Source: Enterococcus haemoperoxidus ATCC BAA-382 (GTDB taxonomy: Bacteria > Bacillota > Bacilli > Lactobacillales > Enterococcaceae). From it: a stretch of 64,000 bases of DNA. The notes beneath the pieces are model-generated. The model did no database searches. It was given only the letters and a program-made list of their open reading frames with translations, and was not told the origin of the DNA. Positions within the stretch are counted from its first letter, which is position 1, and every line of letters begins with the position of its first letter. Location: positions 1,499,464 through 1,563,463 of the forward strand of contig NZ_KE136479.1 in NCBI RefSeq assembly GCF_000407165.1. The letters are read 5' to 3'. Shown in pieces: positions 1,384-8,136 of this stretch. The position numbers and the translations under genes were made by a program.

Positions 1384-1426
1384 AAGAACCAATGCACTGT
1401 GATAGTTGCATTGGTTCTTTTTTAAT
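1384..1426. terminator. Bidirectional terminator between yidC and tetR-type gene
   Basis: AAGAACCAATGCA pairs with TGCATTGGTTCTT, followed by TTTTTT on the plus strand and an A-tract on the other side. It lies between convergent yidC and the minus-strand regulator, whose stop codon it overlaps. Confidence 0.85.
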
Positions 1427-1994
1427 TTTTATTCGCTAAAATCCCGAAGGCAAAAAAATCGACAACTTGAGTAATGCTAATAGCCGTACTTCTTTGCTCC
1501 GTTTTTATATATGGAGATAACGTGTTGAGAAAGTGTGTAGTTGCAATCTCAGCTGTCAGCCCCGTACGCAAAGAAAAATCACTTTCTTCGAAGATCTTTA
1601 GTAATGGTGCTTTATATGACTGATTCCACAGTGAAAATAATTTCAATTGTGTCTCTTTGGTCAACTTGGTTCTGAAATCAAGCATCATCAAATCAAAATC
1701 AAACGGATGTTTTGTTTTCAGACACTCAGCAAATTTTTGTAACTTACTGATCGTTTCAAGCGTTTCATCTTCAACAATTTTAACTAGTTCTTCGTTTACA
1801 TCACTTAACAAACTTTCAATAACACCAACATATACTTCTTCTTTATTCTTAAAATGGTGATATAAATTAGGTTGGGTCACCTCAGCCAGCTGCGCGATTT
1901 GTCTTGTTGAGGTACTTTGATACCCATTATCCATGAATAATCTTGTCGCCACTTGAATGATCTTAGCCCTTGTATTTTTCATTTCTTTATCCAT
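1422..1994 (-). CDS. TetR/AcrR family transcriptional regulator
   Basis: 190 aa. The N-terminal TetR helix-turn-helix is clear: ARIIQVATRLF-like helix 1 (here AKIIQVATRLFMDNGY), then TSTRQIAQLAEVTQPNLYHHFKNKEE at residues ~28-53. The C-terminal ~130 aa form the variable ligand and dimer domain, whose ligand cannot be read from sequence. The SD TAGGTGG precedes ATG 1994. The gene lies 62 bp downstream of the TspO-like gene on the same strand with no terminator that I can see between them, so it is probably the last gene of the DUF2177-DhaL/DegV-DUF1295-TspO operon and its likely regulator (inference). Operator-like dyad candidates exist upstream of that operon. Confidence 0.85.
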   Translation of the reverse strand: MDKEMKNTRAKIIQVATRLFMDNGYQSTSTRQIAQLAEVTQPNLYHHFKNKEEVYVGVIESLLSDVNEELVKIVEDETLETISKLQKFAECLKTKHPFDFDLMMLDFRTKLTKETQLKLFSLWNQSYKAPLLKIFEESDFSLRTGLTAEIATTHFLNTLSPYIKTEQRSTAISITQVVDFFAFGILANKN

Positions 1995-2056
1995 TACTTA
2001 GCCACCTATAGTTGATTTCGTTACTATTTTAACAGATGCAGACAAAGAAACATATA

Positions 2057-2863
2057 CTAGATAACATTCTTTTTTCTTTTAGATAGTAAAACTACTTCGT
2101 ATAGACAAACAATTACGAGAATGACTAAGCATATCATCACTGTCATGACGATGCTAGGATAAGCATTATTCCAACCATCTTGTGCTTGATGCTTGTTCAA
2201 AATACCATAATATGCCCATACCGTTGCTAAACCATATGCACTATCATGGTTACGAATGATCGTTAAACTAATAATCATTACTCCAATAACTAATATGACA
2301 ATCGTCCATAAAACTTGATTATTTTGAAGAAAAGCAATATTTTTATCAACTAAAAATGCTGTTATGTTGGCAATTGTCGCAATTGTGATCCAGCCAAAAT
2401 AAATGCTGAACGGTAACCTTATAAAGATATACTCTTTTTTGGTCAATGGTGTGTTCGCTAAAATACGATTGATATAAATCAGTACAGACAGCAAAGCTAG
2501 CATGATCACAACTGATAAATCAATATAAAGATACTGCCATGCTACTAACCAAATGCTATTCAATATTGAAGAAATGATAAAAGTCATTCTTAACTTTTTA
2601 CTAATTTGCTGATTAATTAAAACAGAATCTTTTCCTGGTTTAAGCCATTGATAAACAACAAAACCAGCCAATAGCAAATAAATTACTGACCAAATTGCAA
2701 ACGTCAAACCAGCTGGGGCAAATAAGTTGGGATAAGTATCAGAAACTTCTTGCGTTGTCATTCCGTTTAGCGGCAACAAAACAGCTGCCGCATTCGTGCC
2801 GATCATTACAATATAGATAATTGTAACGACCCACTTTGACCAAATAGATTGATTTTTATCCAT
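2057..2863 (-). CDS. TspO/MBR-like tryptophan-rich sensory membrane protein
   Basis: 268 aa integral membrane protein with about seven hydrophobic helices. The segment FAPAGLTFAIWSVIYLLL near residues 50-67 resembles the conserved FxPPxxxFxxxWxxLY region of TspO/MBR proteins. Firmicute members of ~260 aa with this arrangement are called tryptophan-rich sensory proteins; TspO proteins bind tetrapyrroles and sterol-like ligands, but the role of this long subgroup is not established. The start is ATG 2863 after AAAGGAGAG; a longer in-frame reading to 2989 would overlap DUF1295 by 113 bp and lacks support. It follows DUF1295 by 13 bp and precedes the TetR gene, so it is read as an operon member. 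Confidence 0.7.
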   Translation of the reverse strand: MDKNQSIWSKWVVTIIYIVMIGTNAAAVLLPLNGMTTQEVSDTYPNLFAPAGLTFAIWSVIYLLLAGFVVYQWLKPGKDSVLINQQISKKLRMTFIISSILNSIWLVAWQYLYIDLSVVIMLALLSVLIYINRILANTPLTKKEYIFIRLPFSIYFGWITIATIANITAFLVDKNIAFLQNNQVLWTIVILVIGVMIISLTIIRNHDSAYGLATVWAYYGILNKHQAQDGWNNAYPSIVMTVMICLVILVIVCLYEVVLLSKRKKNVI

Positions 2864-2876
2864 CTTAATCTCTCCT

Positions 2877-3650
2877 TTATAATCCTTTTTTCCCAATAAA
2901 AGGGGTAAATTTTGGTGTTTTCTTTGCGTAAACAATAAAATCTGGTCGCTCTCTGTATTTCTTCTCAAGCAAAGGGACACCTGATACAAATAAAAGCAAC
3001 AAGGTAATTGTTATTGGACCAATAATACCCCAAATATTTCGTGTGTCATTCAAACTTACAAGAAATATCCCCCACCAACTAAGTGCTTCACCAAAATAGT
3101 TTGGGTGTCTTGTCGTTGACCATAAACCAGTTGTTAACAGCTTTCCATGATTGGCGCTTTCACTTTTAAATTTTGTCAGTTGATGATCGCCAATCGTTTC
3201 ATAGCCAAATCCAATTAACCAAATTAAAACTCCTACTCCATTCCACCAATAAAAAGCATTGGTAGAACTTGTCATCACAAAAAGAATCGGCATTGAAACA
3301 ACTAACAAAAGAACACCTTGTAAAATAAAGACGTTTAAGTAAGCTTTTAATCTTGCAAATCGGTTGCCCCAACGTTTTCTCATGTTCACATAACGATAAT
3401 CTTCCGGTTTTCCGATATTTCGTTTAGCTAAATGGAAAAACAATCGAAGTCCCCAAATTGTTACTAATAAAAGAATTATTGTACTGACCTTTGTTTTTTC
3501 AGGCATAACGAGATACCCTGTAACTGCCACCAGTACAAATCCAATTCCCCAAGCTAAATCAACAATAGAATTATTGTGAAGATATTGCGCTAAAAAGAAT
3601 AACACAGTAAAGTATAAAAATATTACACTACTAACAATTAAAATAGTCAT
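2877..3650 (-). CDS. DUF1295 (steroid 5-alpha-reductase-like) membrane protein
   Basis: 257 aa, about six membrane helices. It matches the DUF1295 / 3-oxo-5-alpha-steroid 4-dehydrogenase-like superfamily: [15 protein letters not shown] near residue 28, an ICMT-like C-terminal core with [19 protein letters not shown] near 172-190, and a final [18 protein letters not shown]. The RHPNYFGE box is the cofactor-binding signature of the isoprenylcysteine methyltransferase/sterol reductase fold. The enzymatic substrate is unknown; a lipid or isoprenoid is likely from the fold. It overlaps the upstream DhaL-DegV gene by 4 bp (translational coupling). Known bacterial neighbourhoods often place DUF1295 with DUF2177, TspO and fatty-acid-modifying genes. 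Confidence 0.85.
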
Positions 3651-5461
3651 ATTAAATCCGCCCCTTCTCCTAATTCAACAGCCACAGCTACACTTCCTTG
3701 ACCAGCACTCATTGCAATAACAGTTGAAATATCCATAATATAACTTGGTTGAAATCCAAGGTGTTTTATTAATTCATTTTTCCATACCAACGCTCTTTTT
3801 TCCGAATTGGCATGAATGACAGCATAACGCTTTATTGTGCTGCTCTTATGCATTTTTTTAAGTTGCTTGATAATTTTCTTTTCATTTCCTTCCAAGCTAA
3901 AAGTAAAAGCACTCAAAGTCCCTTCACCTGCCTCGTTTAAACTAACAATCGGTTTCAAATTAACCTTCTTAGCAATTTTCCCAGCAAATTGAGGTATCCT
4001 GCCAGAGTCAATCATAGGATTTAAATCATCTACGCTAACCAAGATTTTAAGCTGACTTCTTTTATGCCTTGTTCGTTCAACTAATTCAGTAAATCCAATC
4101 CCTGATTGAATCCATTCGTTAGCACACATTACGAGCAATCCTTGCGCTGCAGAATTTTGCTTAGAGTCAATAACCTCAATCCTAGTATTAGGAGAGCTTA
4201 TATGCTTTGCAGCTTCTTTCACGGTATAGAAAGTCCCACTAAGTTTTCCAGCAACCGTAATAACTAAAATTGCTTCATATTTAGTTTCTAAAAATGAAAA
4301 AAGATTTTTAACCGTTTTTAATGTCGGTTGTGAGCTAGTAGCTCGTTCGCTCTGTTTTTTATTCAACTCAAAAAACTGATTGCTTTGAATTGTTATTTTA
4401 TCAATATAGCTAGTATTGCCAATCAATATATTCATAGGCAATACATGAATCTGATTATCTAATACATAGTCAGCAGGTAAATCAGCGATCGAGTCTGTCA
4501 CTAAGGCAATTGGCGCTCTTTTTTGCGTATTTACTCGATATTGCAACAACATATCATCAACCTTTTGTTGAATTGGTTGACCTACCGTGTTTAAATAATC
4601 CAAGACTTGATCTGGCTGATTAGAATGAATATGGATTCTCGCTTTTCCACGATTTATAGAGACAATTAAAGAATCACCATATGCGCTTAATTTTGTCTGG
4701 ATAGCTTCTTTTGTCTGCGTTACCTGATCTATTAATATTTCAGTACAATATCTATATTTTGGTTCTGAAGAGTTTCTATGCAAAGTTTCAGAAATTTCGA
4801 TTTTTACAGACTCATTTAAACGCTCCCTTGGTTTGTCCACAGCTTGTTTATTTATAAAAGCTTTAGTAAAACCTTCTATGAATAAATAGAAGCCTTTCGC
4901 TCCTGCATCGACTACTTGGTTTTTTTGCAGTATCTTTAACTGTCTAGTTGTATTATCTAATGCTTGCTTTGTCTCAATAAGCGCTTGCGGTAAAAGATTT
5001 TCCAAACTATGGATCTGATCCCCTTTATTAAGAGCTTCTGCCCAAGATCTAATAACCGTGATGATCGTTCCTTCTACTGGGTTTTCAATAGCCTGATATG
5101 CTTCACTGATCGCTAACTTTACACTTGTTACAAAACTCTTAACAGAGCTTTTTTCCTCCTGAAGCAATAGATTATTATAAATACCATTAAAATATTGTGC
5201 AAAAATAATCCCAGAATTTCCTCTTGCTCCTAACAAAGAAGCTTCTGCTATATTCTCAAAGACTTCGATGACAGAAGTTGATTCATCATTTGTCTCTTCA
5301 AGTATCGTCTCCATCAACGAGGCTAAATTACTTCCTGTATCTCCATCCGACACAGGAAAAACATTAATTTGATTCAGCTCTTGTTTCTCGTTTATCAATT
5401 GAATAGCTCCTTGTCGAAATGCAAATAGCAACTCTTGATAATCAATCGACTGACTTGTCAT
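3647..5461 (-). CDS. DhaL (DAK2)-FakA-middle-DegV fusion, fatty-acid-kinase-like
   Basis: 604 aa. Residues ~8-200 form a DhaL/DAK2 ATP-binding domain: [15 protein letters not shown] holds the Mg-ligating Asp residues, and [12 protein letters not shown] follows. Residues ~225-310 look like the FakA/YloV middle domain ([28 protein letters not shown]). Residues ~318-600 form a DegV/FakB domain: [12 protein letters not shown], the fatty-acid carboxylate-binding ATSSQPT box, [16 protein letters not shown], and HANSEKRA near the end. In S. aureus FakA and FakB are separate chains that together phosphorylate exogenous fatty acids; here both parts sit in one polypeptide. Inference: a self-contained acyl-kinase dedicated to the lipid operon it sits in. 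It overlaps DUF1295 by 4 bp and follows DUF2177 by 7 bp. Confidence 0.88.
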
Positions 5462-5468
5462 ACGCTAC

Positions 5469-5873
5469 TCACCTCCAATTGAAATGCTGAGCTATAAAGA
5501 CAGTAACACCACAAGTCATTGCAGTAACAAATCCTCCCCAGACTAAATCTATCATTGTAACCAACAAAGGCCAATCTTTAATTGTAGCTAGATTTGTTAA
5601 ATCATATGTTCCATAGCATAGCACTCCTAGAAAAGCACCTGCTGAAATAGCGTAGATCAAACTATCTTTTTCAATTGCTGGATAAATAACAAAAAATAGA
5701 ATACCAATAAGATATAATACATAAAAAACAACTGCTGGAATTATTTTAGTGGGGCCTAACAAACTACCTAACTGATCTTGATAGATTTTTTTAGCAATTA
5801 ATAGTAGCCAGATAAAATCTAGAACTAGAAATATAACCGCTGCACTACTAAATAATTTTATAAACTGATTCAT
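5469..5873 (-). CDS. DUF2177 family membrane protein
   Basis: 134 aa, four membrane helices. It matches DUF2177: FLVLDFIWLLLIAKKIYQDQLG near residues 16-37, AFLGVLCYGTYDLTNLATIKDW near 80-101 and a terminal MIDLVWGGFVTAMT. No catalytic function is known for the family; in proteobacteria it recurs in operons with DUF1295, TspO and cyclopropane-type lipid enzymes. The SD AGGAGG lies 7 bp before ATG 5873. It is the first gene of the five-gene minus-strand operon and has a large dyad immediately upstream that overlaps its probable promoter. Confidence 0.85.
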   Translation of the reverse strand: MNQFIKLFSSAAVIFLVLDFIWLLLIAKKIYQDQLGSLLGPTKIIPAVVFYVLYLIGILFFVIYPAIEKDSLIYAISAGAFLGVLCYGTYDLTNLATIKDWPLLVTMIDLVWGGFVTAMTCGVTVFIAQHFNWR

Positions 5874-5896
5874 TTTAATTCCTCCTAATAAAAAAT

Positions 5897-5934
5897 GGCA
5901 CGATCACCTTATCAATCGATAAGTTTATCGTACC
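5897..5934 (-). promoter_or_regulatory. Large dyad upstream of DUF2177 operon (operator or attenuator)
   Basis: Arms at 5897-5913 and 5918-5934 are inverted repeats with 14 of 17 matches and a 4-nt centre. On the minus strand the dyad contains a possible extended -10 (TGGTACGAT) and is followed by an ATTTTTTATT run and then the SD of DUF2177. It could be a TetR-type operator or a leader terminator; sequence alone does not separate these. Confidence 0.55.
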
Positions 5935-6004
5935 ACGCTCTATTGTTTTATGAAAAAATTTTGCTTGGGAAATTTTTCTAACTCTTCAATTCCAATAGTT
6001 TACG

Positions 6005-6039
6005 GAAAAAAGAGGAGTGCGTTTTGTTCAAGCCTCCTC
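6005..6039 (-). terminator. glyS terminator
   Basis: GAGGAG / CTCCTC stem with a 16-nt loop and TTTTTT on the minus strand, about 15 bp after the glyS stop. It insulates the glycine operon from the DUF2177 operon. Confidence 0.7.
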
Positions 6040-6054
6040 ATCTTTTTTCATATC

Positions 6055-8136
6055 TTATTTTACGATCAATAAATCTAAACTAGCCAATGATAAAGACATT
6101 TTAGCAATACGGTTAAGTTCTTGCAAACGGTTTGCTTTAACTTTTTCATCTTCTACCATAACCATTGTTTCTTCAAAATATTGTTCGATCAATGGTCGTA
6201 AATTGACTAATGCTTGATAATTTTCTGACATAGTATTTTCATCAAACTTCTCTTCAATTTCATTTACTGCTTTGTGTAATGCTTTTTCTGCATTATTTTC
6301 AAATAAAGTCGCATCAACCTGACTATCTTGTTTTAATAGCTCGCGACCTTTTTTAGCTAAGTTAATCACTCGTGTCAATGCTTCCATTGAAGGTTTGAAA
6401 TCATTATCCAGTAAATGTTTTTTCAGGATTGCTGCGGATGAAAACAGTTTGGCTAAGTCCTTTTGTTCAGATGAGATTACAGCATCAATCACATCATGAC
6501 GTACATCTTTTGTCATCAATAATTGGCGTAGGCGCGCTTTCACAAACTCAATGACTTCTTCTTGACCTGTTGTCAATTGGATGCCAAATTTTTGACTATC
6601 CGCATTAACAGCTGCATCGATTTCCATCTGAAGTTGAACTAAGGGGAACTGCCACCCTTTATTTTCAACAATACGAATTACTCCATATGTTTGACGGCGT
6701 AACGCATAGGGATCATTAGAGCCGCTAGGGATCATCCCTACCGCAAAGAATGAAAATACACTATCAAGTTTATCAGCAATTGCTAAAACAGCACCCATTG
6801 CAGAAACAGGAAGTTCTCCTTCACTCGATGTTGGTAAATAATGCTCACGGATTGCCTGAGCTACTGCTGGTTTTTCTCCCTGAAGCAATGCGTATTTTTC
6901 TCCCATGATTCCTTGTAATTCTGGGAATTCACCGACCATATTTGTCACTAAGTCAAATTTGTAAATTTCAGAAGCACGTTTTAAATCAGCCAATTCTGCT
7001 TCTAATAGACCGACTTCTTTACCAATGATTTGTCCAATAACAGCCACGCGTTGCATTTTTTCGTAGATAGTTCCAATTTTTTCATGGAAAGTGACATTTT
7101 TTAATTTATTGACACATTCCTCAATTGACAACTTTTTATCTTCATTATAGAAGAATTCAGCATCTTCTAAACGAGCAATCAACACTTTTTCATTTCCCTT
7201 GATTACATTTTCAATATGAACATTATCCCCATTTCTAACAGAAATAAAGTGAGGTAATAATAATCCTTGATCATTACGAACATCAAAATAGCGTTGATGT
7301 TCTTTCATTGACGTAACTAATACTTCATCTGGAACAGAAAGGTATTTTTCATCAAAAGCACCCACGAAAGCTGTTGGGTATTCAACTAAATTATTAACTT
7401 CTTCCAGCAAATTCTCATCAAGATCCAGCTTCCAGCTATTTTTTTCAGCTAATTGGTTCGCTTGATCAACGATCATTTTTTTTCTTTCATTAGGATCAAC
7501 GATCACAAACTGTGCTTTCAGTTTTTCTTCGTACTCTTTTGAATGATCAAACGTCACATCGTCACCTAAGAAACGATGTCCGCGAGAGCGGTTCCCAGTG
7601 GTTACATCTAGAACAGAGAACGGAATCACTTCATCATCTAGTAAAGCTACGATCCAATGAATTGGACGGATATACTCAAAATCATAATTTGCCCAGTGCA
7701 TTGTCACTGGAAAAGTTAAACTTGTAATAACATCTTTCAATCCTGCTAGCACATCAATCGTTTTTTGTCCTTGATTATGTTTCGTTACATAAACATATTC
7801 TACACCGTTCAATTCTTTAAAAGTGATTGCCTCTGTAGTTAAACCTTGACCTCTAACAAATCCTTCTGCAGCTTTGCTCCAATTTCCTTCGGCATCTTGA
7901 GCAATTTTTTTAGCAGGTCCTTTAACCTCTTCTTGCGTATCTTCTTGTTGTTCTGGCAATCCTGTCACACGTATGGCTAATCGGCGAGGCGTCGAAAAGC
8001 TTTGAACTATTCCATAAGTTAATTTGTTTTCATCTAAAAACTTCACTATTTTATTTTCTAATTGTAAACGACTTGGGCTGACAATATGCGCTGGCATTTC
8101 TTCCAAGCCGATTTCAAGTAATAGGTCTTTTGCCAT
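6055..8136 (-). CDS. glyS: Glycine--tRNA ligase beta subunit
   Basis: 693 aa, normal for the bacterial alpha2beta2 GlyRS beta chain. With GlyQ it charges tRNA-Gly. The N-terminus [15 protein letters not shown] is the canonical start of the family; the [16 protein letters not shown] box near residue 152 and RGHRFLG near 184 follow. The C-terminal ~120 aa form the anticodon-binding/DALR-like helical domain ([33 protein letters not shown]). It starts 1 bp after the glyQ stop, so the two are translated from one message controlled by the upstream T-box. Confidence 0.97.

Follow-up and report, generated by a model that had tools for sequence, protein, structure and literature searches.

A five-gene operon of Enterococcus haemoperoxidus ATCC BAA-382 encodes a FakA-type kinase and a FakB-like lipid-binding domain as a single protein chain, and the palindrome found ahead of the operon is found also ahead of an HrtBA-type pump located elsewhere in the genome. 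The sharing of this palindrome is the new observation reported here. The operon lies in a DNA stretch of 64,000 nucleotides (the window) from a two-contig Enterococcus genome totalling 3.58 Mb. It is made of five minus-strand open reading frames (ORFs) at positions 1422-5873, flanked by glyS and yidC, and encoding, in transcription order, a DUF2177 protein, the FakA-FakB fusion, a DUF1295 protein, a TspO-like protein and a TetR regulator. The junctions, in the same order, are a 7 bp gap, a 4 bp overlap, a 13 bp gap and a 62 bp gap, a spacing which suggests that the five genes are co-transcribed. Both this layout and the presence of FakA-type and FakB/DegV domains in one chain had been described in the original prediction, made from the sequence alone, and are confirmed, as Dak2, FakA-like_M and DegV domains all fall in one frame of 604 amino acids (aa). 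We propose for the operon a role in handling membrane lipids in response to heme, and probably to photo-oxidative stress as well. Heme is quite probably the signal; the joint mechanism, taken as a whole, has about even chances of being right. No published description of the fusion, of the DUF2177-fusion-DUF1295 triad, or of the link between triad and hrtBA was found in open-licence PMC papers. The features are as follows.

5927-5965, minus strand: promoter-like block, conserved, containing TGGTACGAT (in the form of an extended -10), with the palindrome immediately after it
5908-5923, no strand assigned: palindrome CTTATCAATCGATAAG, putative TetR operator, 35 bp upstream of the DUF2177 start
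5469-5873, minus strand: DUF2177, four-helix membrane protein of 134 aa (Pfam 1.3e-42)
3647-5461, minus strand: one-chain FakA-FakB fusion of 604 aa (Pfam Dak2, FakA-like_M and DegV)
4526-5461, minus strand: kinase and linker part of the fusion, residues 1-312, nine FakA residues kept
3650-4516, minus strand: DegV/FakB-like part of the fusion, residues 316-604, pocket residues partly kept
2877-3650, minus strand: DUF1295, membrane protein of 257 aa, steroid-reductase superfamily (Pfam 6.7e-78)
2057-2863, minus strand: TspO-like membrane protein of 268 aa, with a bridge to TspO_MBR proteins
1422-1994, minus strand: TetR regulator of 190 aa, FhtR-like (TetR_N 1e-14)

The exact 16-mer palindrome is found at two places only in the 3.58 Mb genome, the operon and the pump, against an expectation of 0.016 strand-counts calculated from the window dinucleotides. 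The second copy lies on the other contig, 15 bp ahead of the gene for an ATP-binding cassette (ABC) permease accompanied by its ATPase. The permease matches 7w78_B from end to end (4.8e-21), an entry labelled 'putative ABC transport system integral membrane protein', which we take to be the heme exporter HrtB of C. diphtheriae (HrtBA). An E. faecalis record has a TetR gene followed by a pump of the same type, and the 137 bp between them hold two exact copies of the 14-bp core TTATCRATYGATAA. We take this TetR and pump to be FhtR and HrtBA, FhtR being presumably a heme-released repressor having Tyr132 as heme ligand and TTATCRATYGATAA as operator. The window TetR is 36.8% identical to the E. 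faecalis pump-adjacent TetR; the recognition segment TQPNLYHHFKN is the same in both, and Tyr127 of the former aligns with Tyr132 of the latter. Of 24 TetR rows, 22 have a tyrosine at this position; the remaining two belong to unrelated TetRs (23 and 30 bits). The two systems are thus alike in core, regulator with aligned tyrosine and pump type, and differ in that the TetR gene is here part of a lipid operon, and that the pump, preceded by an identical palindrome, lies on another contig. E. gilvus and E. raffinosus similarly feature a pump followed by such a TetR, with a one-mismatch core before the pump. In E. raffinosus, triad and TetR-pump genes both reside on a second replicon of 1.1 Mb (NZ_CP104765; L266, L269). 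A formate/nitrite-transporter-like gene starts near HrtBA-type genes in another locus (L242, 1-217), and the same family also follows the triad in Listeria.

The promoter-like block and the palindrome are conserved in most of 14 aligned relatives, and clearly diverged in one (L063); the 5927-5965 block may serve as a promoter. Simple pattern counts give chance levels both for promoter-like (21 vs 19.8) and terminator-like (3 vs 2.1) sequences. The diffusion of the switch was monitored in 87 fusion loci, which comprise all the 32 non-window places found by a family search, 40 of 62 further genomes from an order search, all 4 new ones from a class search, all 10 new ones from a phylum search and one of six plasmid records. 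Ordinary FakA loci from 20 of the 23 genomes checked for FakA (G000, G1064 and G1137 were excluded) served as a matched control. The exact core is located upstream of the triad in 17 of the 87 loci, and no further copy exists in the 1.24 Mb that the 87 cover. TetR orthologues are found in 14 loci, mostly confined to Enterococcus; 12 of these carry the exact core, as do five loci lacking such a neighbouring gene. HrtB-like permeases are encoded in 9/87 fusion loci and in 0/20 control loci, in two architectures: photolyase clusters, three of which include crtN/crtM, and loci in which the pump precedes DUF2177 (L100, L103, L126). The simplest account of a switch sequence common to operon and pump is that the operon takes part in the heme response together with the heme pump. 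The TetR gene had been recognized in the original prediction as encoding a regulator of the operon, and so it appears from the TetR_N match; its likeness to FhtR, and the operator common to the HrtBA-type pump, which supplies the heme/porphyrin clue, were missing there.

The fusion consists of the ATP and linker domains of FakA, followed by a DegV/FakB domain in place of the C-terminal domain of FakA (Pfam DegV 3.4e-58, Dak2 7.9e-34, FakA-like_M 1.1e-19). In ordinary FakA the third, C-terminal domain binds FakB, according to the relevant text of PMC9136124. The DegV domain of the fusion has no sequence match to this domain (best E 0.12), and the NCBIfam model FakA_VfrB covers residues 16-315 only, leaving out the FakA_C docking domain, at 181 of 975 bits, far under the cut-off. 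As the match is partial and the C-terminal part is DegV, the fusion would work like FakA without being filed as such. Residues equivalent to FakA Asn32, Asp38, Asp40, Thr41, Asn82, Asp185, Cys240, His282 and His284 are identical in 48/48 fusions, and in 22/22 ordinary FakA rows as well. These residues hold Mg/ATP or form a Cys-His-His group (PMC9136124, for one source, in the portion dealing with them). A structural model of the fusion (predicted local distance difference test, pLDDT, 89.2; predicted template modelling score, pTM, 0.86) has as top PDB matches the FakA-FakB2 complex 7w7h of S. suis, FakB 4x9x and FakA_N 8vip. Template modelling (TM) scores to FakB structures, by target length, range from 0.84 to 0.91 in the rows checked, with 0.90 to 4x9x. 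Domains, active site and fold together make acyl-kinase activity of the fusion probable.

Three pocket residues, Ser/Thr376, Ser408 and Arg488, are retained in 29/29 fusions each, compared with 30 free FakB proteins. They correspond by position to FakB Thr61, Ser93 and Arg173, whose roles in the pocket (Ser/Thr at 61) we take as known. Two other positions have changed: histidine at 585 is found in 3/29 fusions vs 30/30 free FakB proteins, and arginine at 521 in 0/29 vs 29/30. The C-terminal histidine of FakB is presumably a carboxylate contact, and it is chiefly its loss that raises doubts about an ordinary fatty acid as substrate; with two near-invariant FakB residues lost, the substrate may be unusual. 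By alignment, position 521 coincides with the basic wedge centred on Arg205 of S. aureus FakB1. The wedge docks FakA_C and binds membranes, as reported in PMC9136124. Loss of this arginine makes sense, because kinase and FakB parts are one chain, and suggests that, unlike free FakB, the fusion does not collect its lipid from the bilayer. The fusion thus shares with the FakA/FakB systems of S. aureus and E. faecalis the Dak2 ATP domain, the Cys-His-His linker, the DegV lipid-binding fold and the nine active-site residues, and departs from them in being one chain, in having DegV replacing FakA_C, and in the changed histidine and arginine-wedge positions.

It departs from them also in descent. 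Kinase parts of 48 fusions and 22 FakA proteins sort in two clades (Shimodaira-Hasegawa-like approximate likelihood ratio test, SH-aLRT, 100), and DegV parts of 29 fusions and 31 free FakB proteins, one FakB row being bad, do the same (SH-aLRT 99). As fusions form a clade of their own in both half-trees, they stem from a single fusion event. This is old, since fusions occur across several families of this order, elsewhere in Bacilli and further away in the phylum, as well as in Acetoanaerobium (Clostridia). The distribution is patchy. Counting the window genome throughout, fusions are encoded by 19/22 genus genomes, 31/105 family genomes and 85/395 genomes of the order sample, as well as by 9/398 and 12/398 genomes of the class and phylum samples, searched with a profile at the stricter cut-off of 1e-130. 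E. ureasiticus, E. termitis, E. rivorum, E. crotali and a DIV0212c isolate are the closest named relatives hosting it. Broken copies include a fusion in two frames (L066), degenerate DUF2177, fusion and DUF1295 genes (L076), a fusion with an in-frame stop (L093) and a DUF1295 gene split in two (L117). Some species are losing the module.

Ordinary FakA is also encoded by all the 23 fusion genomes examined, and all the 13 tested for further DegV proteins have at least two besides the fusion; in the window genome, one FakA and four free DegV proteins accompany it. The fusion is an extra kinase, and not a replacement of the Fak system of the cell. This redundancy bears on the most conventional reading, according to which the fusion is a self-contained FakAB for exogenous fatty acids, endowed with its own chain preference, with DUF1295 and DUF2177 adjusting the chain, and heme and light irrelevant. 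The nine intact active-site residues and a DegV fold matching FakB structures loaded with fatty acids speak for it, and E. faecalis-type relatives have several FakB proteins of differing preferences, as stated in the pertinent passages of PMC12288450. Such a role is nonetheless unlikely, as FakA and several DegV proteins are at hand in every genome checked, the operator is common to an HrtBA-type pump and not to lipid genes, and both His585 and Arg521 are lost.

The same two losses, set beside the three residues that stay, speak for a different substrate. In this alternative the fusion is not a fatty acid kinase; its pocket would hold another membrane lipid acid or alcohol, such as an isoprenoid or an oxidised or hydroxy acid, reduced by DUF1295 and phosphorylated by the kinase. 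DUF1295 does resemble steroid and sterol reductases, and the triad is accompanied by crtN/crtM isoprenoid genes in three loci. A crtM-type gene was however not found in the genome of E. haemoperoxidus itself, and the fold and three pocket residues still match fatty acid FakB, so that we rate this alternative as quite unlikely.

The triad is an old module. DUF1295 genes are found on the same strand within 1.5 kb of the fusion in 81/87 loci, DUF2177 genes in 76/87, and both in 71/87. In the 20 matched genomes the counts are 20/20 and 16/20 at the fusion loci, vs 0/20 and 0/20 at the ordinary FakA loci. Since gene order and surroundings differ between families, it is the group that is conserved rather than the chromosome region. 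Of the neighbours listed in the original prediction, DUF1295 and DUF2177 have this old link to the fusion, and the TspO-like (18/87) and TetR (14/87) genes are found mostly in Enterococcus. DUF1295 matches Steroid_dh over the Pfam cut-off (1.3e-6) and PEMT under it, and its profile matches the PDB entries 7bw1 (7e-4), 4quv (0.0014) and 7c83 (0.0038). By these matches it is a member of the steroid 5-alpha-reductase / sterol reductase superfamily. DUF2177 is modelled (pLDDT 94.3) as four helices, at residues 2-35, 44-69, 72-97 and 103-130, with invariant polar residues within them; no convincing structural match and no solved relative were found in the PDB. The TspO-like protein has no Pfam match at 0.001, only chance-level ones at 10, and nothing was found in the PDB with its profile. 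The name stands because it matches eight proteins of about 240-265 aa which pass the Pfam TspO_MBR cut-off (6e-42 to 1e-60). Nearly all the TspO-like genes are found in Enterococcus between glyS and yidC, one of the 18 being a weak 104-aa match (L122); L098 and the distant genome L169, with MsrA and MsrB nearby, each have one too. In the latter, an enoyl-CoA hydratase gene is interposed between the DUF1295 and TspO-like genes.

Other genes are found near the fusion in scattered loci. A DUF1475 gene is present in nine of the 87 (L096, L097, L119, L121, L124, L125, L160, L164, L165), which span Lactobacillales and distant genomes, and in several of these is adjoined by a DUF3159 gene. In L164, a distant genome, a tocopherol-cyclase-family gene (5408-6367, Pfam 2.4e-20) is divergent from the fusion.

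Genes related to oxidative damage accompany the triad in other lineages. Photolyase genes are found in nine of the 87 loci, in Listeria and in carotenoid clusters, hence in two lineages; crtN/crtM genes occur in three, superoxide dismutase (SOD)-like genes, named by eye, in three, nitric oxide (NO) synthase and peroxiredoxin genes in two each, and MsrA/B in one. In all, 18 distinct loci have photo-oxidative company. The NO synthase oxygenase genes lie two genes downstream of DUF1295 (L129, L130). Six triads, nearly identical across three genera of the family (L064, L070-L073, L075), encode fusions about 43% identical to that of the window. On their flanks are duplicated ABC genes of the HrtBA type and a DUF2871 gene, with crtN/crtM present in three, and the whole looks like a cluster acquired by transfer; next to three of the triads, an ORF of 379-438 aa is transposase-like by eye. 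The Listeria photolyase-DUF2177-DegV-DUF1295 genes are presumably lmo0588-lmo0591, as we take from gene order, lmo0591 being the DUF1295 gene. They have the triad in the same order as the window, preceded by photolyase, and neither an FhtR-like TetR nor the operator was seen in the Listeria loci fetched. The lmo0591 product figures among membrane proteins in the sections concerned of sigB-related studies (PMC2248587; also named in PMC6737072).

A parallel with a proteobacterial DUF1295/DUF2177 set, drawn in the original prediction, is borne out by an Ensifer cluster (L133) of the ChrR/furan fatty acid type, which has genes for a sigma factor, ChrR, DUF1295, cfa, DUF2177, DUF1365 and a flavin adenine dinucleotide (FAD) oxidoreductase. 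In three plasmid stretches, examined out of 59 DUF2177 plasmid records, DUF1295 is found in one, DUF1365 in three and cfa in two; no gene in them is annotated as TspO, which had been counted as part of the set. RpoE-ChrR/furan fatty acid clusters and the operon are alike in featuring DUF1295 and DUF2177 genes under the control, in the former, of photo-oxidative stress; the clusters differ in lacking the kinase fusion, in having cfa, DUF1365 and FAD oxidoreductase genes, and in the regulator. In Chlamydomonas, DUF2177, DUF1295 and DUF1365 genes and two CFA genes need SAK1 for induction by singlet oxygen, as stated in the pertinent part of PMC4067076.

Ensifer cluster, SAK1-dependent induction and the photolyase directly upstream of the Listeria innocua triad would all suit a third reading, in which the operon is the Gram-positive version of a proteobacterial-type light/stress set, making or salvaging furan-type or modified fatty acids, with light or singlet oxygen, and not heme, as the direct signal. 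None of the 16 loci scanned for Cfa, DUF1365 and ChrR, however, had a relative of any of them. Similarly, Pfam detected neither Cfa-type UfaM/UfaD nor the DUF1365 protein UfaO in the operon, in a search covering the window operon and the 16 loci. Furan synthesis in R. sphaeroides requires UfaM, UfaD and UfaO, and DUF1295 and DUF2177 are not named in the portion of PMC7380195 that deals with it. The switch found in this genus being moreover that of the heme pump, we regard this reading as improbable. Of the interpretation given in the original prediction, the kinase fusion, the old link to the DUF families and the proteobacterial parallel therefore stand; that the kinase takes the place of a lipid synthase, as supposed there, is a conjecture.

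Lipids are oxidised by heme and porphyrins that settle in membranes, most of all under light, and for this reason a lipid module and a TspO-like protein fit under a heme sensor. Damage of membrane lipids by heme with oxygen or light would explain the location of the triad beside photolyase, C30-carotenoid, peroxiredoxin, Msr and SOD genes, as well as the presence of DUF1295 and DUF2177 in proteobacterial singlet-oxygen regulons. In the mechanism we favour, the TetR, as a relative of FhtR, would repress both the operon and the distant HrtBA-type pump through one palindrome, and would be released by heme or porphyrin. Members of the TspO superfamily bind porphyrins, and the TspO-like protein would deal with membrane porphyrin, its export being left to the pump. 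The DegV half of the fusion would bind a free acyl chain and the FakA-type half phosphorylate it in cis, covalent tethering replacing the C-terminal dock of FakA and the basic wedge of FakB; the resulting acyl-phosphate could re-enter phospholipid synthesis. DUF1295 might reduce a double bond in the lipid of the fusion or in its precursor, a chemistry suggested tentatively and, on balance, somewhat doubtful. That DUF2177 is a membrane partner presenting or passing the lipid is a guess more likely wrong than right by a good measure. Extended further, the scheme becomes a dedicated repair line for damaged acyl chains in heme-exposed Gram-positives, co-switched with a heme exporter by one sensor: DUF2177 would hand over the chains, the altered-pocket acyl kinase would take them, DUF1295 would reduce them and the product would re-enter phospholipids. 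This extension is rather unlikely.

Several points weigh against a heme-responsive lipid module. An exact operator is absent from 70 of the 87 fusion loci, the exact core from two of the 14 that encode a TetR orthologue, and at the E. raffinosus triad not even a core with one mismatch is found; the module is consequently not everywhere under this switch. Only exact matches stand out, as with up to two mismatches the palindrome pattern is found 7 times per strand vs 5 for the reversed control. Most genera host triads without a TspO-like gene, and some Enterococcus copies are broken, as the split and degenerate ones described above, which makes the module dispensable. Without the equivalents of His585 and Arg521 the fusion perhaps may not handle ordinary fatty acids. 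The families related to oxidative damage were chosen after being seen and counted afterwards; in the matched set oxidative company is found in 4/20 loci vs 0/20, a difference which is not significant, and photolyase is restricted to two lineages. Finally, the properties attributed to FhtR, its operator, Tyr132 as ligand, the identity of HrtBA and porphyrin binding by TspO are all premises of this reading.

If the proposed reading is correct, DUF2177 and DUF1295, widespread membrane families, would gain a testable role through an acyl kinase partner and a heme signal, and fatty acid activation would be tied to heme toxicity in Gram-positives, in parallel with the way in which the lipids of Proteobacteria and Chlamydomonas respond to singlet oxygen. 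Should the repair line exist, it would give Firmicutes their own equivalent of the lipid response to singlet oxygen seen in Proteobacteria, relying on a kinase where the latter use a lipid synthase. The one-chain FakAB is in addition useful for asking how FakA reaches the lipid held by FakB.

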